Shown here in pieces: positions 21,501-35,186 of a stretch of 64,000 nt of DNA. Source of the DNA: Candidatus Dormiibacterota bacterium (GTDB lineage: Bacteria > Chloroflexota > Dormibacteria > CF-121). The notes below the pieces were generated by a model. It did no database searches, had not been told where the DNA came from, and worked only from the letters and a program-made list of their open reading frames with translations. Location of the stretch: the NCBI GenBank assembly GCA_035544955.1, contig DASZZN010000008.1:1-64000 (forward strand), given 5' to 3'. The stretch's first letter is position 1. Every line of letters begins with the position of its first letter. Position numbers and translations under genes: made by a program.

Positions 21501-22673
21501 TTAGCGCGCCTGGCGAAGCGCCTCGGCAAGCACGTCGATTCCCTCGTCGAGCTGGGCATCCTGGATGAGAATCGATGGCAGGAACCGGATGACGGTTCCC
21601 CCTGCGGGCAGGACGAGCACGCCGGCCTCCTGCATCGCCTTGATCACGACGGTCACCGGCTTCTTGAGCTCGACGGCCTGCATCATGCCCCGGCCGCGAA
21701 CCTCGCGAATCAGCGGCAACCGGAGGTCGCGAATGCGCTCTTGAAAACGCGTTCCCGCCTGGGCTGCGCGAGCATGCAACGTCTCGTCGGAGAGGACACG
21801 GAGCGTCACGGCACCGGCGGCGCAGACCAACGGATTACCGGCAAAGGTGCTCCCGTGGCTGCCCTTAGGCACTCGGTCGCTGACTGCCTCAGTGGCCACG
21901 GTCACGCCCACTGGCAGGCCGTTGGCGATCGACTTCGAAAGGCACAGGATGTCGGGCACGATGTCCTCGCGGGTGAAGGCAAACGGGCTCCCAGTCCGAA
22001 ACCCGGTTTGGATCTCGTCACATATCAGAAGGATGCCGCGCGCGTCGCATCGTTCGCGGATCCCTCTCAGATAGCCGTCGGCGGGCACCCGGATGCCACC
22101 CTCGCCCTGGATCGGCTCGACGATCACCGCCGCGACCGAGTCGTCCAGCACCTTGTCCAGTGCCTCGAGATCATCGAACGGGACGTGACGGACGCCTTCG
22201 AGCATCGGGGCGAACGGGTCACGATACTTCGCGTCAGCAGTCGCGGAAAGGGCGCCAAAGGTACGTCCGTGATAGGCGCGGTGGGTGGCGACGATGCCGA
22301 TGCGTCCGGTGGCGACGCGCGCATACTTGAGCGCGGCCTCGACGGCCTCGGCGCCCGAGTTCCCGAAGGAGATCCGGCTCAGGGGTGGGGGCAGCAGCGC
22401 ACCCAATGCGTCGAGGAAATCCTGGCGAGCCGGCGTGTCGAAGCTCTGGTGGGCATTGGTCAGCTGCGACGCCTGCAGCTTGATGGCATCGGTCACCAGC
22501 GGGTGGGCGTGCCCGAGGAGATTCACACCATAGTTGGTCATCAGGTCGAGGTATCGCCGGTCCTTGTCATCCCACAGGTACGACCCCTCGCCGCGAACGA
22601 GGGTCAACCCCCGGCTCGCGTGCAGTGGAATCGGGCTGAGCTGGGTGTGCGTCGCGGTCAGGTCGTGACCCAT
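21501..22673 (-). CDS. lysJ: LysW-gamma-L-lysine/LysW-ornithine aminotransferase (class III, PLP)
   Basis: 390 aa. Transfers an amino group from glutamate to the LysW-bound semialdehyde, the penultimate step of LysW-mediated lysine (and probably ornithine) synthesis. The family is shared with ArgD. Visible features are NYGVNLLGHAHPLV, the phosphate-binding GNSGAEAVEAALKYAR, the PLP-stacking HRAYHGRTFG, IVEPIQGEGGIRVP, the aspartate motif LLICDEIQTGFRTG, the Schiff-base lysine in DILCLSKSIANGLPVG, and GSHGSTFAGNPLVCAA. The ATG start overlaps the end of lysZ by 16 bases, so the two are translationally coupled. It is the last gene of the operon; no clear terminator follows. As the only ArgD/LysJ homologue in the window it probably serves both pathways. 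Confidence 0.9.
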   Translation of the reverse strand: MGHDLTATHTQLSPIPLHASRGLTLVRGEGSYLWDDKDRRYLDLMTNYGVNLLGHAHPLVTDAIKLQASQLTNAHQSFDTPARQDFLDALGALLPPPLSRISFGNSGAEAVEAALKYARVATGRIGIVATHRAYHGRTFGALSATADAKYRDPFAPMLEGVRHVPFDDLEALDKVLDDSVAAVIVEPIQGEGGIRVPADGYLRGIRERCDARGILLICDEIQTGFRTGSPFAFTREDIVPDILCLSKSIANGLPVGVTVATEAVSDRVPKGSHGSTFAGNPLVCAAGAVTLRVLSDETLHARAAQAGTRFQERIRDLRLPLIREVRGRGMMQAVELKKPVTVVIKAMQEAGVLVLPAGGTVIRFLPSILIQDAQLDEGIDVLAEALRQAR

Positions 22674-23452
22674 GTCCCCGCTCCTTCGAAGGCGCGCATC
22701 AGCGGGTGCTCACCGCGCCCATCGAGCAGTCCGACCGCCTTGATGCCGCGGCGGATGGCCTGTGCCGCCGCCAGCAGCTTGACGCGCGCCCGTCCCTTGC
22801 CATATTCCGATATCCGCTCGACCTCATCGAGGTGAATCAATGGGATCACACTTCGCTCGTCGCTGACGTCGCGCATGAAGCCGGGGGTGTCGGCAAAGAT
22901 CAGCAGACGCTCGGCCTGCAGCGCGCTGGCGATCTCCATCGCTAGGCGGTCGCCGTCGATATTGATGGCGACGCCCTCGTGGCTGATCGCGGGTGGTGTG
23001 ATGACCGGCATGTAACCATTGTCGAGCAGCAGCCGCAAGAGCTTCGGCTCGACCCGCTCGATGCTGCCGCTGTGATCGCCGTGCAGGATTTTGACCTTGT
23101 CGCCTTCCTTGATGCGCAGGTCCGGCTTACGCCGGCCGATCGCGATGCCTCCGTCCATCGCCGTCAGGCCCACCGCGTTTGAACCCAGGGCGCGAAGCCG
23201 CTCCACGATGCGCTTGTTCTGCTTGCCGGCGTAGGCCATCAGGAAGTGATCCATGGTGATCGCGTCGGTGAAGCGGCTGATCTCGCCTCGTTCGGAGGTG
23301 ACCATTCGTGGCGGATGGCTCAACCGCGCGGAAAGCTCATTCAGCTCCTTGTTGGCGCCGTGCACCAGCACCAGCGGCTCCTCGCAGGCGGCGACATCGC
23401 GCAGCAACGGGTCGAAGTCGGTCAGGCTGCCGCCGATCTTGATGACCAGCAC
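22658..23452 (-). CDS. lysZ: LysW-gamma-L-alpha-aminoadipate/LysW-glutamate kinase
   Basis: 264 aa amino acid kinase of the ArgB/LysZ family. It phosphorylates the side-chain carboxylate of LysW-bound aminoadipate (or glutamate). The GTG at 23452 is chosen because the sequence then starts VLVIKIGGSLTDF, where LysZ proteins start, and because it lies 2 bases after the lysY stop. The longer open frame adds only a nonconserved Pro/Arg-rich extension. Motifs are KIGGSL (phosphate loop), LVLVHGANKELNEL, the ITMDHFLMAYAGKQNK stretch, PPAISHEGVAINIDGDRLA and LLIFADTPGFMRD. The HGANKE motif in place of the HGGG of N-acetylglutamate kinases fits LysZ rather than ArgB. Confidence 0.9.
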   Translation of the reverse strand: MLVIKIGGSLTDFDPLLRDVAACEEPLVLVHGANKELNELSARLSHPPRMVTSERGEISRFTDAITMDHFLMAYAGKQNKRIVERLRALGSNAVGLTAMDGGIAIGRRKPDLRIKEGDKVKILHGDHSGSIERVEPKLLRLLLDNGYMPVITPPAISHEGVAINIDGDRLAMEIASALQAERLLIFADTPGFMRDVSDERSVIPLIHLDEVERISEYGKGRARVKLLAAAQAIRRGIKAVGLLDGRGEHPLMRAFEGAGTWVTT

Positions 23453-23454
23453 GG

Positions 23455-24507
23455 CTAAATGGGGTACAGGCCCGGGAAGTCGAGGCCGGTTCGCTCGTCC
23501 CATCCGAAGCGGATGTTGAGTGCTTGCACCGCCTGGCCGGCCGCGCCCTTCATCAGGTTGTCGAGCGCACTCATGACGACCACGCGACGCGAGTGCGGGT
23601 CCCGCTCGAAGCCCACATCGCAGTAGTTCGTACCGGACAGGATCTTCGGGTTGGGATAGCGGTGGATCCCCTGTGACTCCTTGATGATCCGCATGAACGG
23701 CTCATCGGCGTAGGCCGCACGGTAGATCTTCCAGAGATCTTTCTCGGTGAGGTCGTCGCTGAGGAACACGTGGGCTGTGACCAGGATGCCACGGACCGCC
23801 TCCACGGCGGTCGCCGAGAAGGCGATCTTGGGACCATGGCCGTTGGGAGATTGAAGACCCAGCTCCTGGATGATCTCGGCGCTGTGCCGATGCGCGGTGG
23901 GCGCGAACGATCGCATCTCGCCGCTGCGATGGGGGTGGTGCGACGCCGGTCCCGACTCCGCGCCGCCGGCAGAAGACCCGGTCTTGCCTTCGATCACGAT
24001 CGGCATCGAAGGGTCGACGACGCCGGCGCGCGTCAGCGGATAGAGGCCAAGAATGGCGGCGGTCGCCAGGCAGCCACCCGCCGCCAGGCGGTCAGCGGTG
24101 CGGATCTGCTCGCGGTGCAGCTCCGGAAGCGCATAGACGAAGTCATTGAGCAGGGCGGGCTGCGGATGCTCCCAGCCGTACCAGGTCGGGTAGCCGGCCC
24201 GGTCACGCAAGCGGAAGTCCGCCGAGAGGTCGATGATCGTCGGCGCCAGCGTCTGCAGCTGGTCGATTTCCTTGCTGGTCTGGCCGTGGGGCAGCGCCAG
24301 GAACAGGACATCGACCGGCTGTAGCGATTCTCGCGACTGGAACTTCAGCTCGGTCCGCCGCCGGAGATGCGGGTGCACCGTGTGTACGAACTTTCCGCCG
24401 AGGCGTTCGGACGTCACCTGCGTCACCTCGACCTCCGGATGCGACAGGAGGAGTCGAAGCAGCTCTCCGCCGGCGTAACCGGCCCCGCCGATAACCGCGG
24501 TTTTCAA
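23455..24507 (-). CDS. lysY: LysW-gamma-L-alpha-aminoadipyl-6-phosphate/LysW-glutamyl-phosphate reductase
   Basis: 350 aa NADPH-dependent reductase of the ArgC/LysY family, forming the LysW-bound semialdehyde. It begins (TTG start, overlapping the lysK stop as TTGA) [20 protein letters not shown], with the nucleotide loop GGAGYAGGELLRLL. Then come FLALPHGQTSKE, IIDLSADFRLRD, the catalytic Cys in AAGGCLATAAILGLYPL, GKTGSSAGGAESGPASHHPH and the catalytic His region RSFAPTAHRHSAEI. The SSAGGAESGPASHHP stretch is the LysY-like variant of the ArgC loop. The rare TTG start and stop overlap imply coupling with lysK. Confidence 0.9.
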   Translation of the reverse strand: MKTAVIGGAGYAGGELLRLLLSHPEVEVTQVTSERLGGKFVHTVHPHLRRRTELKFQSRESLQPVDVLFLALPHGQTSKEIDQLQTLAPTIIDLSADFRLRDRAGYPTWYGWEHPQPALLNDFVYALPELHREQIRTADRLAAGGCLATAAILGLYPLTRAGVVDPSMPIVIEGKTGSSAGGAESGPASHHPHRSGEMRSFAPTAHRHSAEIIQELGLQSPNGHGPKIAFSATAVEAVRGILVTAHVFLSDDLTEKDLWKIYRAAYADEPFMRIIKESQGIHRYPNPKILSGTNYCDVGFERDPHSRRVVVMSALDNLMKGAAGQAVQALNIRFGWDERTGLDFPGLYPI

Positions 24508-25577
24508 CGCGCCAGCTGGTTGAGCGCCGTGGTCAGCACATTGACCCCACGGGCGAAGTCCTCGAGGTCCATCGCCTCGTCCGGCGTGTGGTCGAGCTTG
24601 GAATCGCCGGGTCCATAGGCGAGCGTCGGGCAGCCCCAGACGGGGGCGAGGATGTTCATGTCAGAGGTTCCTGTCTTCATCTTGAACCGCGGCGTGCCAC
24701 CAGCGTCACGGATACCTTTGAGAAAGGCTCGCACAACCGGCGTGTTCTTCTCCGCCCGAACGGCGGCATCCGCATACTCGAAGCGCAGCTCGGCGCCTTG
24801 CGCCCATTGTTCCAACTCTTGCTGAAAGGACGGCACATCGAAGTTCGGGGGCAGGCGAAACCCGACCGTCATGGCGGCGGTGTCGCGGAAACCGTCGTGG
24901 TCGGCATGGAATCGAAGGATGCGCGCGTCGAGCCGCTCGAAGGTCCCGAGCCCCTCACCCTGCGCGGCCGCATGATCCTGCACGCGGCGCACGAAGGCGG
25001 TAGCCCGATCGGCCGCACTCTCGTTGGGTCCGGCGCCATGGCCCATCGGCTGGGAGAGCCGGTAGCGGAGCTTGAGGCTGCCTTTGTAGCCGAGCGTGAC
25101 GGCGTCCCACCCGCTCGGTTCGAGGATCACGAGCTGATCGGGCGCCTTCCGGTTCACGAGATGACGGGCCCCGCGCGAGCTGCCCTCTTCCTCGACGGCG
25201 CCGATGACGGTGAAGCGACAGGCGGCTCCGTCGGGTTGCCGCGCCACCGCCGTGATAGCGGCGGCCAGCGGGCCCTTGGCGTCGACTGCACCGCGGCCGA
25301 ATAGCCGATTCCCCTCGCGCCGCACCGGGATGAACCCGGGGACCGTATCCATGTGTCCGAGGAGCAGCACTTCGCGCGGCCCGCTACCCCAAAAGGCGAT
25401 GACGTTGCCGGCTTCGTCCCGTCTCGCGGCGAAGCCCATCGCCCGCAGCCGTGACACCAGCCACTGGCCCAGCTCGCGCTCCTGCGTGGAGACGCTCGGG
25501 ATCGACACCATCTCCTCGAGCAGCTCGATGCCGGATTCGGTGACAGGCTCGGTCTGCGCGGTCAGCTCGGTGATCAC
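24504..25577 (-). CDS. lysK: LysW-gamma-lysine/LysW-ornithine carboxypeptidase (M20 family)
   Basis: 357 aa zinc amidohydrolase that releases lysine (or ornithine) from the LysW C-terminus, the last LysW-bound step. The GTG at 25577 overlaps the lysX stop as GTGATC. The much longer open frame upstream is the lysX gene read in another frame. M20 motifs: [19 protein letters not shown] (metal His and Asp), [26 protein letters not shown] (catalytic Glu pair), [19 protein letters not shown], and [25 protein letters not shown] near the C-terminus. It is shorter than ArgE/DapE, as expected for LysK. Confidence 0.9.
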
Positions 25578-26428
25578 GCCGGCACCGCCTCGAGCGCGCC
25601 GACCCGCAGCACGTAATCGACGATCCGGCCGGGGATGTCGACGCCGGTGGTGTCGATGCTGTTGCGGAACTCCATCGTGTAGTTGACCTCGCTCACGACC
25701 ATACCGTCCGGGTGCTCGAGCAGGTCGATGGCCAGTACGCCGCCACCGACGGCGCCGGCCGCGGCGCGCGAGAGACGGTCGATCTCGGGGGTCACGGGGC
25801 AGTTGCGAGCCTGGCCGCCGCGGGCCGTGTTCGTGATCCAGTGAGACGACTCGCGGTAGATGGCGCAAATGGTCTCATCGCCGACCACGAAGCTGCGGAT
25901 GTCGCGCGACGGCTTGTCGACGTACTCCTGGATGTAGAAGATCGCGTGCTGGTAGGAGCCGAGCGTGTCCTTGTGCTCGAGCAGCGCTTCGGCGGCGTCG
26001 CGGTCCGAGATCTTTGCCAGCAATCGCCCCCAGGAGCCGACCGCCGGCTTGAGCACGACGGGATAGCCCAGCGTCTCGATCGCCTCGAGCGCCGATTCGG
26101 GCGTGAAGGCGATCAGCGTGCGAGGGCTGGGAACGCCGGCGGCGATCAGCGACGTGGTGGTGTTGATCTTGTCGCCGCAGGTCAGCGCCACCTCGTAGGT
26201 GTTGACCGTCGGCACGCCCCACTGGTTGAGGATGCGCAGCGAGTAGAGCGCCCGCGAGTGGTGTAGGCAGCGCTCGAGCACCACGTCGAAGTGCCTCGGC
26301 TGCGCCGCCAGGTCGAAGACCAGCTCCCGGTCGTCGATCTTCTCGATCTCCAGATGACGGCGGGCGAAGCCCTCGAAGAGCAGTTTCTCCTCGGCACGGA
26401 TGCGGGAGCACAGAACGCCGATTCTCAC
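25574..26428 (-). CDS. lysX: LysW-alpha-aminoadipate ligase LysX (ATP-grasp)
   Basis: 284 aa RimK-type ATP-grasp enzyme that joins the alpha-amino group of alpha-aminoadipate to the C-terminal glutamate of LysW. The GTG at 26428 ([13 protein letters not shown]) is one base after the lysW stop, so the pair is coupled. Motifs: [80 protein letters not shown], and the metal site [20 protein letters not shown]. The [14 protein letters not shown] tail closely resembles Thermus-type LysX. The paralogue at 29866 differs exactly there, so I call this copy LysX and the other ArgX. Confidence 0.9.
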
Positions 26429-26429
26429 G

Positions 26430-26609
26430 TCACTCGCCCCAGTCTTCCTCTTCCTCGGGCGCCAGGCGGAGCTCGGCCGGGTCCCGCTCGACCACTTCCA
26501 GCTCCGCGCCGCAGTCGCTGCAGGGTACGATCTCGCCCTTCTCGACGTCCGCCGCGAGCTTGACATCGGCCGCGCACTCCGGACACTTCGCGGTTACTGC
26601 AGTTGCCAT
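26430..26609 (-). CDS. lysW: LysW amino-group carrier protein
   Basis: 59 aa, ATG at 26609 directly abutting the lysU stop. The carrier protects the amino group of alpha-aminoadipate (and, with ArgX, glutamate) and tethers intermediates for LysZ, LysY, LysJ and LysK. Two CxxC knuckles (KCPEC at 9-12 and PCSDC at 30-33) form the zinc-binding globular part. An acidic stretch ([10 protein letters not shown]) ends in the invariant EDWGE, whose terminal Glu is the attachment point. This one small gene identifies the whole pathway. No second lysW copy is in the window. Confidence 0.96.
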
Positions 26610-27107
26610 TTACGACACCTCCTCGATCGCGGCCCAGCCGCGTGTTTTGATCAGGTCGATCAGCGTCCCGGCTTCCATGATGGCGACCGCCACCGGCCCG
26701 GGTGTTTCCCCCTGGAATATCTTGCCACCGACATCAATGCCGCCGGAACGGATGTCGATCGAGACCGGGTCGCCGTCCTGGACCGCGTCGTAGACCGAAT
26801 CGCACTGGATCACCGGCAGGCCAATGTTGATCGCGTTCCGGTAGAAGATCCGCGCGAAGCTGCGCGCCACGACCGCCTGGACGCCGGCCGCTTTGATCGC
26901 CATCGGGGCATGCTCGCGCGAGCTGCCGCACCCGAAGTTGCGGCCGCCGACGATGACGTCGCCCGCCTGGACGCTGCCGGCGAAGTCGGGCCGGGCCTCG
27001 ATGAAGCAGGCCTTGCCCAGCGCGGCCGGATCGGTGGTGACGTTGTAGCGGCCCGGGATGATCGCATCGGTCGAGATCCCGTCACCGAACTTGAAGACCC
27101 TGGCCAT
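26610..27107 (-). CDS. lysU: Homoaconitase small subunit (LeuD/HacB-like)
   Basis: 165 aa swivelling-domain subunit that completes homoaconitase with LysT (homocitrate to homoisocitrate). The ATG at 27107 (MARVFKFGDGISTDAIIPGR) shares one base with the lysT stop (TGATG). An upstream in-frame start would overlap lysT further and adds nothing conserved. Motifs: FGDGISTDAIIPGRYN and GGRNFGCGSSREHAPMAIKA (the substrate-recognition loop is in the first, the GCGSSREHA signature in the second). LeuD is the main alternative, but the operon position beside homocitrate synthase and lysW argues for the lysine pathway. Confidence 0.88.
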   Translation of the reverse strand: MARVFKFGDGISTDAIIPGRYNVTTDPAALGKACFIEARPDFAGSVQAGDVIVGGRNFGCGSSREHAPMAIKAAGVQAVVARSFARIFYRNAINIGLPVIQCDSVYDAVQDGDPVSIDIRSGGIDVGGKIFQGETPGPVAVAIMEAGTLIDLIKTRGWAAIEEVS

Positions 27108-28387
27108 CAGTTCCTCACTCCAACCAATTCCCACACCCGCCTGGGGAGGTCGGGGACGGGGAGCAGGCGGGGATCGGCGATCGCGCCGGCCAGCGCCGAG
27201 GCCGCGGCGACGGCCGGGTTCGCGAGGTAGATCTCGGCCTGCGCACTGCCCATCCGACCGGCGTAGTTCCGGTTGCTAGTGGAGAGCGCGCGTTCGCCGG
27301 CGCCGAGCACGCCGTGCTGACGGCCGAGGCAGGGGCCGCAGCCGGCGTTCATCACGAGCGCGCCGGCCTCCATGAAGGTCTGGATGTAGCCGCGGGCCAG
27401 CGCCTCCATGTAGATCTGCTTGGAGGCGGGGACGACGATCGTCCGGGTGCGCGGGTGAACCTGCTTGCCCTTGAAATAGCCGGCGACGATCGCCAGGTCC
27501 TCGATCCGGCCGTTCGCGCAGCTGCCGACGAACACCTCGTCGAGCTCCGTGCCTTCGACCGCGCTCAGGTCCTGGACGTTGTCGATCGCCGGCGGGCAGG
27601 CGATCTGCGGTTCGAGTTTCTCCGCGTCAACCTCGATGACACTGCGGTACACGGGAGCGACCGGGTGCAGGTCGAGCACCGCGGCCTCGCCGAGGTAGGC
27701 CCGAGTGTGCTCATCGGGCTCGCACAGACCCGCCTTTCCGCCGAAGTCAACCGTCAGGTTGGCGAGCGTGAGGCGTTCGTCCACGCTCATGGCCTCGACG
27801 GCCTGACCTCCCCACTCCACCGCCAGGTAATTGGCGCCCTCGGCGCCCAGCATTCGGATCACCTTCAGCGCGAGGTCCTTGGGGAAGATGCCAGGAGGCA
27901 GTGCCCCACGAAGGTTGATCCGGATCGTCTCCGGCACGCGGAACCAGGTCTTGCCGGTGGCGAAGGTGACCGCGATGTCCGTCGATCCGAATCCCGCCGA
28001 AAAACAGCCGAGCGCGCCATAGGTGGTGCTATGCGAGTCGGCGCCGACCACGATGCCACCCGGCCGGATGAATCCCTTCTCCACCATCAGCTGGTGGCAG
28101 ATGCCTTCCTGGAAGACGTGCGTCACGCCGTACTCGTCGGCAAAGTCGCGGACGATCTTGTGGAGGCCGGCCGACGCCACGGTGTTCGCCGGCAGGATGT
28201 GATCGAAAACCATGATGACGCGCTCCGGATCCCAGAGCGGGACCCCGAGCTTGCGGAAGGCCTCGATCGCCAGCGGGCCGGTGACATCGTGCGCCATGGC
28301 GTAGTCAACCGGTGCGACCACGATCTCACCGGCATGGACATTCCGTCCGAGCCGTCGCGAGAAGATCTCTTCGGTCAGTGTTCCCAT
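27107..28387 (-). CDS. lysT: Homoaconitase large subunit (LeuC/HacA-like)
   Basis: 426 aa 4Fe-4S hydro-lyase subunit of the alpha-aminoadipate route. Motifs: VMVFDHILPANTVAS, the GICHQLMVEKGF region, VVGADSHSTTYGALG, cluster cysteines in VFVGSCANGRIEDL and NAGCGPCLGRQHGVLG, and STSNRNYAGRMGS near the C-terminus. Length fits the compact LeuC2/HacA type rather than the 470-aa LeuC. It starts 14 bases after the hcs stop and overlaps lysU by one base. Confidence 0.88.
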   Translation of the reverse strand: MGTLTEEIFSRRLGRNVHAGEIVVAPVDYAMAHDVTGPLAIEAFRKLGVPLWDPERVIMVFDHILPANTVASAGLHKIVRDFADEYGVTHVFQEGICHQLMVEKGFIRPGGIVVGADSHSTTYGALGCFSAGFGSTDIAVTFATGKTWFRVPETIRINLRGALPPGIFPKDLALKVIRMLGAEGANYLAVEWGGQAVEAMSVDERLTLANLTVDFGGKAGLCEPDEHTRAYLGEAAVLDLHPVAPVYRSVIEVDAEKLEPQIACPPAIDNVQDLSAVEGTELDEVFVGSCANGRIEDLAIVAGYFKGKQVHPRTRTIVVPASKQIYMEALARGYIQTFMEAGALVMNAGCGPCLGRQHGVLGAGERALSTSNRNYAGRMGSAQAEIYLANPAVAAASALAGAIADPRLLPVPDLPRRVWELVGVRN

Positions 28388-28401
28388 TGGGTTTCCCTCT
28401 C

Positions 28402-29529
28402 CTATGCCGGGACCGAGCCCCGAAGCAGATCGTCGAGTTCGTCGTTGCTGAGTGGTCCCGCGTCCGCGCGGCGCTTCACCTCGTTTGTGAGCGTCCGCAA
28501 TTCGTGGTCCGTCAGCGTCAGCCCCAGCGCGGTGGCCCGGCTGGCGATCGCGTGGCGGCCGGTCAACCGATGGCCGGCCATCACCGTGCGCTCCCGTCCG
28601 AAGCGCGCCGGATCGAAGATCTCGTAGCTCGAGGGGTCGTTCAGCACCGCGTTGGTGTGCATCCCGGCCTTGTGATGAAAGGCGGTGTCGCCGGTGATGG
28701 CGGCGTTGAACGGGATCTCGACCCCGACCATGTCGGCGACCATCCGGTCCAGCTGGGGCAGGATCTCGAGCCGGTAGTGCGCCACCAGCTCGGGCTTCAC
28801 ACTGAGCAAGCGGGCGATCATGCCGCTCAGCGGCACGATGCCGTTGCGTTCGCCGATCCCGAGCACGGTGGTGTCGATATGCGTGGCGCCCGCCTCCAGC
28901 GCCGCAAAGGCGTTGGCGATGGCGCAGCCGGTGTCGTTGTGGGCATGGAACTCGATGTCGCAGTCGACAGCTTTGCGCACCATCGAGACCATCTCGAAGA
29001 CTTGGTTCGGTGTGGCGATCCCGACAGTGTCGGCCAGTCCCACCCGCTGCGGGTGCAGGCGGTCGATCGCCTGGTAGACGCGCAAAAGGTCGCGCGGCTC
29101 CGAGCGGAAGGAGTCCTCGCTGCTGAAGCGCACCTCCAGCCCCCGCGACTGGATGTACTGGACGACCTCGGTGCCGGCTTCGATGATCTGGTCCACCGTC
29201 TTGCCATGCGAGAACTCCCGCATGGCCGACGAGGTGCCGAAGAGCACGTCGATCCCGTCCGCGCCGGTATCGATGGCGACCCGGGCGTCATCCAGATGAC
29301 AGCGGACGTGGGTCAAGACCTTGGCCCGAAGCGGGAGCGCCGCGACCGTCCGCAGGTCGGCCTCGGACTGCGGCGAAGCGCACGGCGAGGTCAACTCGAG
29401 ATACTCGACCCCGAACTCATCGAGCATGTCCGCGATCGCGATCTTCTGCGAGCGAGTGAAGTGCGCCGGGGCGAACTGCTCGCCTTCCCGAAGCGTCGAC
29501 TCGATGATGTTGAACGCTTGAATGGTCAT
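28402..29529 (-). CDS. hcs: Homocitrate synthase
   Basis: 375 aa TIM-barrel acyltransferase condensing acetyl-CoA with 2-oxoglutarate, the committed step of lysine synthesis by the aminoadipate route. The ATG at 29529 follows GGAGG by 5 bases. Motifs: [69 protein letters not shown], the metal-binding [29 protein letters not shown], and [11 protein letters not shown] in the C-terminal subdomain. SPxASPQS and FGTSS are close to Thermus/Deinococcus homocitrate synthase; 2-isopropylmalate synthases are usually longer with a regulatory domain. The lysine-type T-box upstream supports this call. Confidence 0.92.
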
Positions 29530-29540
29530 GGCACCTCCGA

Positions 29541-29834
29541 AAAATAAAAAGCCTTCGTCCACCGGGACGAGAGGCCTTCTCTCGTGGTACCACCCGACTT
29601 TGCCGCTCTCTCGCAAGAACGACCTCTTTGAGTCCGCGGCCCGCTGCCTGAAGACTCCAGCCCGATCACGGGGGCCATCCGGCGAGGCCTACTGCGGATT
29701 GCTCCGTTCGACCTGCGGCTCCGAGGCCTTTTTCGGCGGTGCCCTGGATTCTCCTTCTCAGCTGCCGGAGACTCTCTGTAATCCCAGCGTCCGCGTACTC
29801 GCCCTCATCGACGCCTTTCCGTATGAACTTGTAA
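29541..29834 (-). promoter_or_regulatory. T-box riboswitch leader, probable lysine specifier, controlling the hcs-lysJ operon
   Basis: A complete T-box reads on the minus strand. Stem I has lower helix GAGG/CCUC (29806-29803 with 29726-29723), an AGUA S-turn (29799-29796), helix GCGG/CCGC, an upper CUGG.AUU/AAUCCAG helix, the AGAGAG bulge and a GGCAGCUGAGA distal loop. The specifier strand is CGAAAAAGG: after the GAA motif the codon is AAA (29731-29729); shifting by one gives AAG. Both are lysine. The T-box core GGGTGGTACCACG is at 29595-29583. Its flanking GAGAG pairs with CTCTC for the antiterminator. The competing terminator stem spans 29575-29551 (one bulge, CGGT loop) and ends in TTTTTATTTT. 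Uncharged tRNA-Lys should permit read-through; charged tRNA should terminate. Confidence 0.93.
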
Positions 29835-29840
29835 GTGTCA

Positions 29841-29869
29841 ACCATAACCGTCAGGCCGCTAGGTGTCAA
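29841..29869 (-). promoter_or_regulatory. Sigma70-type promoter of the lysine operon
   Basis: A consensus -35 TTGACA (29869-29864), 17-base spacer and TATGGT (29846-29841) place the transcription start near 29834, just before the T-box stem I. The -35 overlaps the argX stop codon (29868-29866), so the promoter is embedded in the end of argX. Confidence 0.85.
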
Positions 29870-30735
29870 GCCGCCGTAGGCTTTGCGGCAACCTCTATCA
29901 AGTAGTCGATGACGTGATCCGCGACCTGGATCCCGGTCGCGTCCATGAAGCCGTGAAATTCGGGTGTGTAGTTGAGCTCGTTGACCAGCAGCCCGTCCGG
30001 ATGCTCGAGCAGGTCGACGGAGAGGAATCCACCGCCGACCGCGGCCGCCGCTTTGCGGCAGAGCTGATCGATCTCGGGGGTGACCTCCATCTGGGAGGCG
30101 ATACCGTTGCGCGCCGTGTTGGTGATCCAGTGGTCGGAGCTCCGGTAAATGGCGCCGATCGTCTGCTCCCCCACCACGATCGCCCGGATGTCGCGATCGG
30201 GTTTGTTGACGTATTCCTGGATGTAAAAAATGCCGTGCTGGTAGGAGCCAAGCACCTCTTTGTGCTCGAGCACCGCCTCGGCGGCATCCCGGTCGTTGAT
30301 CTTCGCCAGCAGCCGGCCCCACGAGCCGACCATCGGCTTCAGCACGACCGGGTACCCCATCGCCTCGATCGCTTCCAGTGCGGCCTCCCGGGTGAAGGCA
30401 ACGACAGTCCTTGGGATGGGCAAGCCGGCGCGCGCGAGGGCGGCAGTGGTGAGGATCTTGTCGCCGCAGATCCGTGCCACCCGTGGCCGGTTGACGGTCG
30501 GCACACCGGCCGCTTGCAGCAGCGTCAGCGCGTAGAGCGACCGCCCGTGGTGGATGGAGCGGTCCAGGACCACGTCCGGGGCGTTCGGAAAGGGGCTGCC
30601 GATCGGGAACTGGATGAGGTCTTCGTCGAGGCGCTCGAAGGGGATGGCGCGCTGGCGGAGCGCCGCGAACAGCGCCTTCTCCTCGATGCGGACACGGGAG
30701 CAGAGGATGCCGATCATCGTTTGTTGCGTAATCAT
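29866..30735 (-). CDS. argX: LysW-glutamate ligase, ArgX-type (LysX paralogue)
   Basis: 289 aa RimK-type ATP-grasp enzyme expected to attach glutamate to LysW, opening ornithine/arginine synthesis. It shares the LysX framework ([57 protein letters not shown]). The substrate-side loops differ: [20 protein letters not shown] where LysX has GGQARNC, and [20 protein letters not shown] where LysX has [15 protein letters not shown]. It precedes the T-box on the same strand and is divergent from the argG-like gene at 30787 across 51 bases. Two starts are possible (30735 and 30717); GGAAA precedes the first. The ligand preference is inferred from paralogy, gene context and loop divergence. If wrong, it would be a second LysX. 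Confidence 0.78.
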
Positions 30736-30752
30736 ACAGGTTTCCGTATACT
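30724..30752 (+). promoter_or_regulatory. Candidate promoter of the argG-like/argH/argR/argG operon
   Basis: TTGCGT (30724-30729), 17 bases, TATACT (30747-30752). AGGAGG follows 9 bases before the ATG at 30787. It overlaps the 5' end of argX on the other strand. I looked for an ArgR-type TGAATwwwwATTCA dyad here and found none convincing. Confidence 0.6.
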
Positions 30753-30786
30753 TATGCGACTACACCCGGTCAGGAGGCTATACAAC

Positions 30787-32031
30787 ATGCTGGCTTTGAA
30801 GAGCAAGTTACTGGAGAAGGTCGACGCGACGCCGGTCAAGACCGCCAAGAAGGTCGCGCTCGCTTACTCCGGAGGATTGGACTCATCCCTTTGCGCGGTC
30901 CTGGCGAAAGAGAAATACCAGGTCGAGGAGCTGTTCGCGATCACGGTGGACGTGGGCCAGGGCCAGGATGAGATGGATGCCGCGATCTCGAAGGCCAAGG
31001 TGCTGGGCATCACGCCGATCGTGATCGACGCCAAGCAGGAGTTTGCGGACCTGTGGCTGACGAAGGCCATCCAGGCCAATTCCAGCTACGAAGGCTACCC
31101 GGTCTCCACGTCAATGACGCGCCAGCTGATTGCCTCGAAGATCGCCTTACTGGCGCTCAAGCTCGGCTGCGACGCCATCATGGAAGGTAGCAGCGGCAAG
31201 GGCAACGACCAGTACCGGATGCACAACGTTTTCAAGCTCTTCGCGCCGCAGCTCGAGGTCCTCGTGCCGGTGCGCGACTTCGACCTGACGCGGGGCGAAG
31301 AGGAGGAGCTGTCCAAAGAGCTCGGGATCCCCATCACCGAGGTCATGCAGGGCGGCGACGACAAGACGCTGTGGTGCCGCAGCTTGGCCTCCGGTGCGGT
31401 TGGACTCAACCAACCGATTCCGGATCATGCCTGGCTCTGGCTGAAGACGCCGTCGCAAACGAGCTCGACGCCGACGCAGGTTTCGGTCACGTTCGAAGGC
31501 GGCGTCCCCGTGGCCCTCGACGGCACCAGGATGCCCCTGCCGGAGATCGTGGCGAAGCTCAACGTCATCGCCGGCAATCATGGCATCGGCAAGATCGACA
31601 TCTTCGAGGACGGCATCATGGGCCTGAAGTCGCGCGAGCTCTACGAGGCGCCCGCGGCGGCCGTCCTCCTGAAACTGCACCACGACCTGGAGCAGTTCAC
31701 CCTCACCAAGGAGGAAATCGACTACAAGGCCGGGGTCGACCAGAAGTGGGCCCACCTCGTGTACCACGGCGCCTGGTTTAGCCCGCTGAAGGAAGCGTTG
31801 GACGCCTTCATCGCGACCACCCAGACCAACGTCAACGGCACGGTGACGGCCAACCTGTTCCATGGCACGATCGACCTGGAGTCGCGCCAGAGCAATAACT
31901 CGCTCTTCTTTCCGGAGATCCGCGGATTGCAGAGCCGGAGCTTCAACCAGCAGTGGTGCGGGCCGGCCGCGCAGATCGGTGGCTTGCCGTGGGAGATCCT
32001 GGCCAAGCGGAACGCGAAGGTCGCGCACTGA
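30787..32031 (+). CDS. Divergent argininosuccinate synthase-like protein
   Basis: 414 aa. The ATG at 30787 has AGGAGG upstream; the frame extends far upstream only as antisense of argX. N-type ATP pyrophosphatase loop ALAYSGGLDSSLCAVL (27-42), FAITVDVGQGQDEMDAAI, YEGYPVSTSMTRQLIASKIA and EGSSGKGNDQYRMHNVFKLF are clearly of the ArgG fold. But the segment that reads SVDENLWGRS in the second ArgG here is VMQGGDDKTLWCRSLASGA, and the C-terminus (FFPEIRGLQSRSFNQQWCGP) lacks the usual SSFDS/DQ ending. It may be a diverged ArgG or an ArgG-like ligase with a different substrate. Being first gene of the arg operon and divergent from argX, it is probably part of arginine metabolism. Confidence 0.75.
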   Translation: MLALKSKLLEKVDATPVKTAKKVALAYSGGLDSSLCAVLAKEKYQVEELFAITVDVGQGQDEMDAAISKAKVLGITPIVIDAKQEFADLWLTKAIQANSSYEGYPVSTSMTRQLIASKIALLALKLGCDAIMEGSSGKGNDQYRMHNVFKLFAPQLEVLVPVRDFDLTRGEEEELSKELGIPITEVMQGGDDKTLWCRSLASGAVGLNQPIPDHAWLWLKTPSQTSSTPTQVSVTFEGGVPVALDGTRMPLPEIVAKLNVIAGNHGIGKIDIFEDGIMGLKSRELYEAPAAAVLLKLHHDLEQFTLTKEEIDYKAGVDQKWAHLVYHGAWFSPLKEALDAFIATTQTNVNGTVTANLFHGTIDLESRQSNNSLFFPEIRGLQSRSFNQQWCGPAAQIGGLPWEILAKRNAKVAH

Positions 32032-33389
32032 GCAAACAGCCGTGGGGTGGGCGATTTGGCGAAGAGCCGGATCCGCTGGTCGACGAGTTCACGCGATCGC
32101 TCGATGTCGACAGCCGGCTCTATCGCGAGGACATCGCCGGTAGCCGCGCCTGGGCGAAGGCGCTCGTCCGCGCGGGTGTGCTGACGCCGGAGGAACAGCT
32201 GCGCATCGACCTGGCGCTCCAGGAGATCGGGGCGGAGCTCGCCTCCGGCGCCCCGTCGGCCGGAAGCGAAGACATCCACATGGCGGTCGAGAAGCGCCTG
32301 CGGGAGAAGCTCGGTCCGCTCGGCGGCAAGCTGCACACCGGCCGGAGCCGCAATGACCAGGTCACCCTGGATCTGCGGCTGTATGTCAGGGCCGCCGGCG
32401 CCCAGTTGCTGGAGGCGCTGGCTGGGCTCGAGTCGGCGCTGATCGCCCGGGCCGAGGAACACCTCGACACCGTGATGCCAGGTTACACGCACACGCAGCG
32501 GGCGCAACCCGTTCTACTCGCCCACCATCTGCTCGCCTACGTCGAGATGCTCCACCGGGACGGCGGCCGGATCGCGGATGCGCTCGGTCGGGCCGACGTC
32601 TCTCCGCTGGGCGCGGGTGCGCTCGCCGGGAGCGGTTTTCCCATCGACCGCGCCGAGCTAGCCCATGACCTCGGCTTCGGCATGGCCAGTGCCAACTCGC
32701 TCGATGCCGTCGCCGACCGCGACTTCGTTCTCGAGCTACTGGCGGCGTGCAGCATCGCGATGATCCATCTCTCCCGCCTTTGCGGGGAGATCGTGCTCTG
32801 GACCAGCGTCGAATTCTCCTTCGCGGCGTTGCCCGACGCGCTCGCCAGCGGCAGCTCGATGATGCCGAACAAAAAGAACCCGTGCGCCGCCGAACTCGTC
32901 CGCGCGAAGAGCGGGCGGGTCGCCGGCGACCTGGTGAATCTCCTGATGGTGCTCAAGGGCCTCCCGCTCGCCTACAACCGCGACTTGCAAGAGGACAAGG
33001 AGGCACTCTTCGACGGCGTCGATACGACCATCGCCTGTCTCAATGTGACCGCGCGCCTGGTGCAGGGCCTGCAATTCGACCCGGGCGTGATGCGCAAGGC
33101 GGCGCTCCAGGGATACACGCTGGCGACCGAGCTCGCCGATTACCTGTCCAGGAAAGGCATGCCGTTTCGCGATGCGCATCACCTCGTGGGAAGGATGGTG
33201 GCGGACGCGATCGCCACGCATCGCGGTCTGGAGGACTACACCCTTCCCGAGCTGCAGCAGTTTTCGCCGCTCTTCGCTGCAGACACGATCGACCACCTGA
33301 CGCTCGAAGGCGCACTCAACTCGCGCGACGTTCTCGGAGGCACGGCGCCGGCACGCGTGAAGGAGGCGCTCGCGCATGTCAAAGCGTAA
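32028..33389 (+). CDS. argH: Argininosuccinate lyase
   Basis: About 453 aa fumarase/aspartase-superfamily lyase splitting argininosuccinate into arginine and fumarate. A CTG at 32028, overlapping the preceding TGA as CTGA with GAAGG 8 bases upstream, gives the family-typical start SKQPWGGRFGEEPDPLVDEF. The nearest standard in-frame starts (ATG 31953, GTG 31989) would add residues antisense to nothing and nonconserved. Motifs: KLHTGRSRNDQVTLDLRLYV, PGYTHTQRAQPVLLAHHLLA, and the catalytic-serine loop SGSSMMPNKKNPCAAELVRA. Its 3' end overlaps argR by 14 bases. Confidence 0.92.
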   Translation: MSKQPWGGRFGEEPDPLVDEFTRSLDVDSRLYREDIAGSRAWAKALVRAGVLTPEEQLRIDLALQEIGAELASGAPSAGSEDIHMAVEKRLREKLGPLGGKLHTGRSRNDQVTLDLRLYVRAAGAQLLEALAGLESALIARAEEHLDTVMPGYTHTQRAQPVLLAHHLLAYVEMLHRDGGRIADALGRADVSPLGAGALAGSGFPIDRAELAHDLGFGMASANSLDAVADRDFVLELLAACSIAMIHLSRLCGEIVLWTSVEFSFAALPDALASGSSMMPNKKNPCAAELVRAKSGRVAGDLVNLLMVLKGLPLAYNRDLQEDKEALFDGVDTTIACLNVTARLVQGLQFDPGVMRKAALQGYTLATELADYLSRKGMPFRDAHHLVGRMVADAIATHRGLEDYTLPELQQFSPLFAADTIDHLTLEGALNSRDVLGGTAPARVKEALAHVKA

Positions 33390-33858
33390 GCGGCAGGAGG
33401 CAATCCTCTCCTTGATCGCCAAGCACCAGATCGCGACCCAGGAAGAACTGGTCGAACGCCTCGGCCGCGTCGGCATCCACACGACGCAGGCAACCGTGTC
33501 GCGTGACATCGCCGAGCTTGGGCTGGTTCGCGTTGGCGGGCCGGAGAGCCACTATGTCAAGCCAAACGACGGCCTGGGGGCGGCCTCGCCGGCTGGTCGC
33601 GAGGACCGGCTTCGCCGCTTGCTGCGCGACCTGCCGCTGACCGTCCGTCGAGGGCAGGGGATCGCCGTCCTGACCACGACGCCGGGCTCGGCGAATTCGA
33701 TCGCCTCGGCCATGGACGCGGTCGCATGGCCGGAAGTGATCGGGACGCTCGCCGGCGATGACACGATCTTCGTTGCCCTCGCGCTCCATCCACGCGCCTA
33801 CGGCGGGCTCGCCCAGCGGCTGGCTGGCCTCGGCGCCTACATTCAACCAGAGGACTGA
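33376..33858 (+). CDS. argR: Arginine repressor ArgR
   Basis: 160 aa. The N-terminal winged helix (KRKRQEAILSLIAKHQIATQ, with HTTQATVSRDIAELGLVRV as recognition region) is followed by the hexamerisation/arginine-binding domain with VLTTTPGSANSIASAMD and the arginine-contacting GTLAGDDTIFVAL. ATG at 33376 with AAGGAGG upstream, overlapping argH; its stop shares one base with the argG start (TGATG). It probably represses the arg operon with L-arginine as corepressor, and may also act on argX. Confidence 0.93.
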   Translation: MSKRKRQEAILSLIAKHQIATQEELVERLGRVGIHTTQATVSRDIAELGLVRVGGPESHYVKPNDGLGAASPAGREDRLRRLLRDLPLTVRRGQGIAVLTTTPGSANSIASAMDAVAWPEVIGTLAGDDTIFVALALHPRAYGGLAQRLAGLGAYIQPED

Positions 33859-35186
33859 TGCCAGAGAAGATCGTCCTCGCCTTCTCCGGTGGCCTCGACA
33901 CCACCGTGGCCGTGAAATGGCTCCAGGAGACCCGCGGCTTCGACGTGGTCGCTCTGACGGTCGACCTTGGCAGCCAGCCAAACTTGAAGGCGATCCGCGA
34001 GCGGGCGCTTGCCGCCGGAGCGGTCCAGGCGTACGTCCTCGACACCCGGCAGCCCTTCATCGACCGGTTTTGCTGGCCGGCCCTGAAGGCGGACGCGATC
34101 TACCAGGGCCAGTACCCGCTGGCAACCGCACTTGGCCGTCCGCTGATCGCCCAGCTCCTCGTCGAGGTGGCAGCCCGGGAGGGAGCGACCTGGGTGGGCC
34201 ACGGTTCGACCGGGAAGGGAAACGACCAGGTCCGCTTCGATGTGGCCGTCGGAGCCCTCAACCCGAATCTGAAGGTGCTGGCGCCGCTGCGGGACGGGAT
34301 GTCGATGACTCGGGAGGAGGAGATCGCCTACGCCCGCGCCCACAAACTCCCCATTGAGGTCAAGCCCGAATCGCCGTACAGTGTGGACGAGAATCTGTGG
34401 GGGCGATCCATCGAGGCCGGGGTCCTGGAGGATGCTCTCCTCAAACCCCCCGAGGACGCATTTCTCTGGACCTCGTCGGTGGACACCGCCCCCGCCAGCT
34501 CGGCGGTCATCGAGCTGACCTTCGAGAAGGGCGTTCCCACAGCGCGCGATGGGCGCCAACTCGGGGGCGTGACTTTGGTCGAGGAATTGAACCGGCTGGG
34601 AGGCCTCCACGGGGTCGGCCGGATCGACATGATCGAGGACCGCTTCGTGGGGATCAAATCGCGAGAGATCTACGAGGCGCCGGCGGCGGTCATCCTCCAC
34701 GCGGCACACCGGGCGCTGGAAGACATGGTGCTCGATGCCGAGGTCGCGCGCTTCAAGGCTTCAGTCGCGGCGGAGTACGCGCGCATGGTGTACCAGGGCA
34801 AGTGGTTTACGAGCCACCGGCGCGACCTCAATGCCTACGTCGAGAGCACCCAGAGCGCCGTCACAGGAACGGTCCGCGTCAAGCTCCACAAGGGAAGCGT
34901 GCAGGTGATCGGCCGGTCGTCGCCCTACTCGCTCTACCGCCCGCAGCTCGCCACCTACTCATCGGGCGACCAGTTCGATCACCAGGCCGCGGTCGGGTTC
35001 ATCAAGCTGGTCGGCCTACCTGTCCGCACTCAGGCCGAGGTGCAGGGGACCGCGCTCACAGAGCCCCTACTTGAAGACGATCGCCATGTTGTTGAAGTCG
35101 GCCCAGGAGCGCTCGAACTCGGCCTTGCTGAACCAGTACTGGGAGCCGCTGTGCCAGGGGTCGTTGACCCGGACCTGCGTCGCTGA
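33858..35186 (+). CDS. argG: Argininosuccinate synthase (canonical)
   Basis: Condenses citrulline and aspartate with ATP. Typical ArgG motifs: KIVLAFSGGLDTTVAVKWLQ, TVDLGSQPNLKAI, GHGSTGKGNDQVRFDVAVGA, PYSVDENLWGRSIEAGVLED, LWTSSVDTAP, GRIDMIEDRFVGIKSREIYE and YSSGDQFDHQAAVGFIKLVG. The family normally ends near residue 400. Here the frame continues about 40 residues (LEDDRHVVEVGPGALELGLA...) to 35186, antisense to the 3' end of the convergent peptidase gene over 120 bases. The tail is probably a nonconserved extension. Start ATG overlaps the argR stop. Confidence 0.93.
   Translation: MPEKIVLAFSGGLDTTVAVKWLQETRGFDVVALTVDLGSQPNLKAIRERALAAGAVQAYVLDTRQPFIDRFCWPALKADAIYQGQYPLATALGRPLIAQLLVEVAAREGATWVGHGSTGKGNDQVRFDVAVGALNPNLKVLAPLRDGMSMTREEEIAYARAHKLPIEVKPESPYSVDENLWGRSIEAGVLEDALLKPPEDAFLWTSSVDTAPASSAVIELTFEKGVPTARDGRQLGGVTLVEELNRLGGLHGVGRIDMIEDRFVGIKSREIYEAPAAVILHAAHRALEDMVLDAEVARFKASVAAEYARMVYQGKWFTSHRRDLNAYVESTQSAVTGTVRVKLHKGSVQVIGRSSPYSLYRPQLATYSSGDQFDHQAAVGFIKLVGLPVRTQAEVQGTALTEPLLEDDRHVVEVGPGALELGLAEPVLGAAVPGVVDPDLRR

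Follow-up and report, generated by a model that had tools for sequence, protein, structure and literature searches.

In the known LysW-dependent synthesis of lysine and arginine, such as that of Sulfolobus with its ligases LysX and ArgX, ornithine is followed by an ornithine transcarbamylase (OTC) and one argininosuccinate synthase (ArgG, or ASS). The ArgF-type OTC has a fold unrelated to that of ArgG and requires carbamoyl phosphate. Here we analysed a 64,000-nucleotide stretch of DNA from Candidatus Dormiibacterota bacterium (contig DASZZN010000008.1 of assembly GCA_035544955.1), referred to below as the window, which likewise has LysW, two LysX-type ligases, LysZ, LysY, LysJ and LysK. Unlike the known LysW versions, the family to which the window genome belongs has two ArgGs, and no OTC was found in it. 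This family (f1) comprises 18 genomes, and the window genome is 95.4% complete. A profile search of the latter found only two genes with PF00764: argG2 and the subject of this report, argG1. Both lie in the following gene group:

30787..32031, + strand: argG1, divergent argininosuccinate-synthase-like ligase of 414 residues.
32029..33389, + strand: argH, canonical argininosuccinate lyase; the start codon is uncertain, and the longest open reading frame opens at 31953.
33376..33858, + strand: argR, arginine repressor (NF002880, 121 bits, under the curated cut-off of 200).
33858..35186, + strand: argG2, canonical argininosuccinate synthase.

These genes overlap or nearly touch and form one operon, with argX divergent from argG1 and 51 base pairs between their starts. 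The gene order is unchanged in the other f1 genomes wherever the contigs allow it to be followed.

A preliminary description of the locus had reported two unlike ArgGs in one operon opposite argX, and this was borne out: ArgG1 and ArgG2 share 36% identity across 390 columns. ArgG1 carries the motifs SGGLDSS, GKGNDQ and GGDDKTLWCRS ascribed to it there, and the fourth gene is indeed a canonical ArgG, with SVDENLWGRS and an NF001770 score of 546 bits, far over the cut-off of 334. ArgG1 scores above TIGR00032 (338 bits, cut-off 268) and NF001770 (345, cut-off 334) and under the cut-off of NF010392 (384 vs 512); both Pfam domains, PF00764 and PF20979, are over cut-off, and the fold is that of ArgG. 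Because it passes two curated models it would be labelled “argininosuccinate synthase”, a label that would hide a distinct enzyme and a missing arginine step. The gene is more than a chance occurrence, since 17 of the 18 f1 genomes carry it (one as a partial copy), 75-94% identical to that of the window. Only one ArgG is present in the sister families f2-f4, sharing 55-60% identity with ArgG2 and 34-41% with ArgG1; it follows that ArgG2 was inherited and that ArgG1 is an addition. That ArgG1 is a recent duplicate or a decaying one was ruled out by the identity within the family and by the deep clade described below.

The active site was compared in an alignment of 81 ArgG1 and 67 canonical ArgG sequences, using human numbering. 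Seven changes (H116E, V126Y, F128M, S180G, N184T, E191A and R272G) each occur in 81/81 ArgG1, and the original residues at these positions are found in 66 or 67 of the 67 canonical sequences; Glu191 and Ser180 are conserved in all 67 and replaced by Ala and Gly in all 81. According to a 2026 variant study of human ASS (PMC13289927), Glu191 contacts citrulline and Ser180 contacts ATP, and the variants E191Q, S180N and S180I are described there as having little or no activity. The ATP loop, the aspartate site and most citrulline contacts are intact in ArgG1: the P-loop, Asn123 and Ser189 are retained, Thr/Ser119 and Asn123 of the aspartate site are kept in 81/81, and Asp124, Arg127, Glu270 and Tyr282 are invariant in alignments A1 (12 rows) and A2 (17 rows). 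The changes are suggestive of another substrate, though not proof of one.

ArgG1 is found well beyond f1. Scanning a species-level genome collection yielded 138 relatives, of which 80 were retained, and 66 loci outside f1 were analysed from these (L106-L172 minus L130). The relatives are 56-64% identical and come from Chloroflexota, Rubrobacter, Armatimonadetes, Syntrophaceae and other Deltaproteobacteria, Latescibacterota, Planctomycetes, Bacillota, Spirochaetales, Parachlamydiales, Dependentiae, Nitrospirota, Poribacteria and archaea. In a tree of 45 of the 81 ArgG1 and 45 of the 67 canonical sequences plus the human and Thermus enzymes, built by a quick method that gave long-branch warnings, ArgG1 was set apart by a branch with full support in the Shimodaira-Hasegawa-like approximate likelihood ratio test and a stem of 2.25 changes per site. 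ArgG1 and ArgG2, whose clustering together had been named beforehand as speaking against a special task for ArgG1, do not cluster. Judged from its sequences, ArgG1 is a separate deep clade across many phyla and an ancient twin of ArgG. The special task that had been suggested for it thus gains support from the deep clade together with the substrate- and ATP-contact changes fixed in 81/81 sequences.

An AlphaFold model of ArgG1 has the ArgG fold, with a mean predicted local distance difference test score (pLDDT) of 79 and values below 50 along stretches of the loops of interest. Its top PDB matches are argininosuccinate synthases (7k5z, E 2.6e-30). ArgG1 thus shares with ArgG the fold, both domains, the P-loop and the aspartate-site and most citrulline-site residues, and differs by its separate deep clade and the seven fixed changes. 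The nitrile synthetase ArtA (9leh, 9lei), with 22-24% identity in a structure alignment, also has the ArgG fold and owes its name, given by the depositors, to a different chemistry; it is far more remote from ArgG1 than ArgG is, and the comparison is one of fold and name.

A profile search with PF02729, in which most of the matches were read, found no anabolic OTC in f1 (0/18 genomes). One PF02729 gene is present in 13 of the 18, a split gene in one, two genes in two and none in two; 12 of the 13 single matches were readable, and all 12 are PyrB. The window genome has one carbamoyltransferase-fold gene, PyrB, and ArgJ was not found in it. The second carbamoyltransferase of G007 and G011 was considered as a hidden OTC and ruled out, being of the ArcB type; in G007 it lies next to an arginine deiminase (L073:4657-7999), and the G011 copy is on L074. 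The sister families f3 and f4 have two carbamoyltransferase genes each, and the three second genes that were read are all OTC.

The same association was seen in a phylum sample of 251 genomes, all at least 85% complete; ArgG1 is present in 17 of them. The count was restricted to the 208 genomes with an ArgG-like match (E < 1e-20), with TIGR00658 as the OTC cut-off; the 43 genomes left out include 19 that are also without OTC. OTC fell below the cut-off in 10/17 genomes with ArgG1 vs 7/191 without it, and was clearly absent (best match E > 1e-50) in 9/17 vs 2/191. Fisher's test gives p 9e-9 when kinship is ignored, a value that is too good because the 17 ArgG1 genomes fall in three families. 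One ArgG1 genome without OTC, G213, is a 2-contig, 99%-complete assembly.

ArgG1 keeps close company with the lyase. An ArgH gene lies near it in 53 of the 66 loci, nearly always directly downstream, and ArgG1 adjoins ArgH more often than ArgG2. In 41 genomes outside f1 (41 of the 66 loci, mostly those on longer stretches), exactly one ArgH is over cut-off in 35, two in 4 and none in 2, and in 28 the single ArgH of the genome over cut-off lies within 3 kb of ArgG1. In the window genome the operon's argH is the sole ArgH above the TIGR00838 cut-off. ArgG1 is found together with a canonical ArgG in 40 of the 41 genomes, in 16/17 genomes from the phylum sample (on the basis of a second match) and in 6/6 Syntrophales. 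The exception among the 41 is G046, whose stretch (L114) ends in lysJ; the related L107 and L108 have ArgG2 after lysJ. Most partner ArgHs elsewhere are of a divergent type with fixed changes, and that of f1 is canonical. Neighbouring genes were considered as a common clue to the substrate and set aside, as nothing beyond ArgH recurs over all lineages. Some lineages have ArgG1 near pyrimidine, histidine or purine genes, and in L123:6482-11015 it is flanked by a divergent pyrBI fusion and carA. A DUF6282 gene stands directly before ArgG1-ArgH in four loci from Armatimonadetes and Deltaproteobacteria (L112:7625-12702, L163, L164 and L170), and some of these loci also have an amidohydrolase, an M20 peptidase or both.

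A reduced setting is a Dependentiae genome of 1.0 Mb (G047), with an operon of ArgR, an amino-acid binding protein, ArgG2, ArgG1, ArgH, a permease and an ATPase (L115:6930-13401). We searched 989,963 bases of it (contigs 1-20 minus 1,271 bases) by tblastn, with which distant queries can miss genes. ArgG1, ArgG2, ArgH, ArgR, binding proteins and an aminotransferase were present; PyrB, OTC, ArcA/B, CarA, ArgC, LysZ, LysJ, LysK, LysX and LysW were not detected, nor were any ornithine-making genes in these bases. TIGR00658 had no match at all, and CarB was absent among the seven long open reading frames, a part of the total, that were scanned with Pfam. This gene set makes most sense if ArgG1 performs a step beyond the reach of ArgG2, starting from a precursor, ornithine for example, that the cell imports. 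A similar module, binding protein and permease followed by ArgG2-ArgG1-ArgH, is found on a Parachlamydiales contig (L149).

Together, the findings point towards a step in arginine synthesis that depends on the two ArgGs as well as on ArgH and can proceed without OTC. Accordingly, we tentatively propose, as a reading with appreciable but less than even odds, that ArgG1 is a ligase with the ArgG fold that uses aspartate, consumes ATP and acts on an arginine intermediate earlier than citrulline, so that OTC is bypassed. The simplest chemistry meeting such a step would be the joining of ornithine carbamate with aspartate. Ornithine and CO2 would give the delta-N-carbamate of ornithine, which ArgG1 would adenylate and condense with aspartate to succinyl-ureido ornithine; the neighbouring ArgH would release fumarate from the latter to leave citrulline, and ArgG2 and ArgH would convert citrulline to arginine as in the standard pathway. 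Two ArgG/ArgH rounds would thus stand in for carbamoyl phosphate and OTC. It is the substrate, the intermediate, the direction and the replacement of OTC that we infer here. Somewhat more doubtful is the wider claim that ArgG1 and ArgH, then ArgG2 and the same ArgH, form a carbamoyl-phosphate-free arginine route in ten or so phyla, intracellular bacteria included; that both of its steps consume aspartate and give fumarate is held with the same reserve.

The step proposed for ArgG1 would be the one taken by ArgF and its acetyl- and succinyl-ornithine variants. A missing carbamoyltransferase has been noted in Bacteroidetes in the GapMind report (PMC7311316), where it is explained by succinylated intermediates. 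The arginine synthetase ArcE of Thermococcus is likewise a non-standard means of arginine/citrulline interconversion; as described in PMC13260591, it works with ArcB, and its occurrence is unrelated to argininosuccinate genes. No second ArgG family and no OTC-free citrulline route was found in the open-access literature searched, most subscription papers being outside the search. If OTC is indeed replaced, this would be a new way of making citrulline and would supply a candidate enzyme for a pathway gap that lies beyond genome-based tools, and predictions of arginine capability would change for many uncultured phyla.

Several observations weigh against the proposal. All seven ArgG1 genomes of the phylum sample that have an OTC carry the long ArcB-like form, which Ktedonobacteria retain, and that form can act anabolically according to PMC9239276. 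Among the 41 genomes outside f1, OTC is over cut-off in 17 and below it in 24, and many of the latter may be incomplete bins. OTC losses are also clustered by lineage. In the Syntrophales (17 genomes), four of the six with ArgG1 have an OTC, in the other two PyrB is at the edge of a contig, the place expected for OTC, and OTC is present in 11/11 without ArgG1; the absence in G072 and G076 is probably an assembly gap. A rule that ArgG1 means no OTC is thus broken, and because Syntrophales keep OTC, ArgG1 need not replace it. In Syntrophales and Ktedonobacteria, which have kept OTC, ArgG1 may be an alternative to it rather than a replacement, or may have another task. A special lyase does not seem to be needed, the ArgH of f1 being canonical, and the Dependentiae transporter could import citrulline or arginine instead of ornithine.

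Of the competing explanations, the best to survive is that ArgG1 is a citrulline-using isozyme of ArgG2 or its partner subunit, in a hetero-oligomer or for regulation, and that OTC is absent for other reasons. It would account for the common fold, the passing of two curated argG models, the keeping of the P-loop, Asn123, Asp124, Arg127, Ser189, Glu270 and Tyr282, and the nearly constant presence of ArgG2. We nevertheless regard it as rather unlikely, given that all 81 sequences combine E191A with S180G, at positions where substitutions abolish activity in the human variants reported; that even the reduced Dependentiae genome retains both ArgGs; and that ArgG1 is found next to ArgH more than to ArgG2.

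About one chance in its favour to several against is what we would give to ArgG1 and ArgH making some other amidino, guanidino or ureido product outside arginine synthesis. The altered active site, the retained OTC of Syntrophales and, in some lineages, the nearby amidohydrolase, DUF6282, M20, pyrimidine, histidine or purine genes all agree with such a role. In f1, however, ArgG1 stands in an arginine operon with argR, beside argX and with a shared operator-like element; the partner ArgH is usually the sole ArgH of the genome, and the Dependentiae module includes ArgR.

It is improbable that ArgG1 joins ornithine to N-carbamoyl-L-aspartate, the PyrB product, to give argininosuccinate directly, with canonical ArgH finishing the synthesis. 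Neither OTC nor a new lyase would be needed, most pockets would stay because the product is the same, and L123 places ArgG1 between pyrBI and carA; yet ArgG2 would be left without a substrate in the OTC-less genomes that keep it, and G047 has ArgG1 with PyrB and CarA not detected by the search described above. Least probable is an action of ArgG1 on LysW-bound ornithine or citrulline: it lies inside the LysW cluster in f1 and some other loci, and a site without Glu191 could accommodate a blocked alpha-amino group, but the same fixed residues occur where LysW-pathway genes were not found. Carrier-bound citrulline, offered in the preliminary description, is accordingly unsupported as a general substrate, ArgG1 standing beside ArgH in G047, where no LysW-pathway genes were found by tblastn. 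LysW genes do not follow ArgG1 everywhere: they are nearby in part of the loci only, and none were seen in the neighbourhoods of the Ktedonobacteria loci. An enzyme confined to the LysW system was ruled out by G047 and by the loci without LysW genes nearby. Should the proposed bypass of OTC prove wrong, this ancient and highly conserved twin of ArgG, with its rebuilt active site, would still be in need of a substrate.

The remaining features around argG1 in the window are:

30724..30760, no strand: inverted repeat TTGCGTAATCATAC-N8-GTATACTTATGCGAC between argX and argG1, overlapping the argX start.
29866..30735, - strand: argX, second LysX-type ligase, divergent from argG1 (TIGR02144, 326 bits).
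28402..29616, - strand: homocitrate-synthase-like gene with HMGL-like and HCS_D2 domains.
26610..28387, - strand: LeuC/LeuD-type homoaconitase subunits, named by reading and synteny.
26430..26609, - strand: lysW carrier protein, from profile matches.
25574..26566, - strand: lysX, longest open reading frame; the matched region begins at residue 49.
24504..25868, - strand: lysK-type M20 peptidase, longest open reading frame; the true start is further inside.
23455..24507, - strand: lysY/argC, from a profile match.
22658-23503, - strand: lysZ, named by reading and synteny.
21501-22673, - strand: lysJ, named by reading and synteny.

The inverted repeat is kept in 16 aligned f1 sequences, with the left half diverged in one (L086), and is a putative ArgR operator. 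The gene context suggests that argX is specific for glutamate. The window thus holds, at 21501-30735, a LysW cluster with two LysX-type ligases, where the sister families have an arginine cluster of the argC/argB/argD type; f2-f4 carry argC, lysZ/argB-like, lysJ/argD-like, argR, argG and argH genes. In f1, a soil Chloroflexota lineage, lysine and arginine are probably both made on the LysW carrier.

Two minor observations concern argG2. Its tail (35067-35186) and the 3' end of a convergent C39-like gene share about 114-120 nucleotides; other members of the genus show this overlap too, and there is no C39-like match at this place in the other f1 genera. Finally, G003 and G010 each have a further contig with argG2 (L059 and L064), perhaps from a second strain in the bin.

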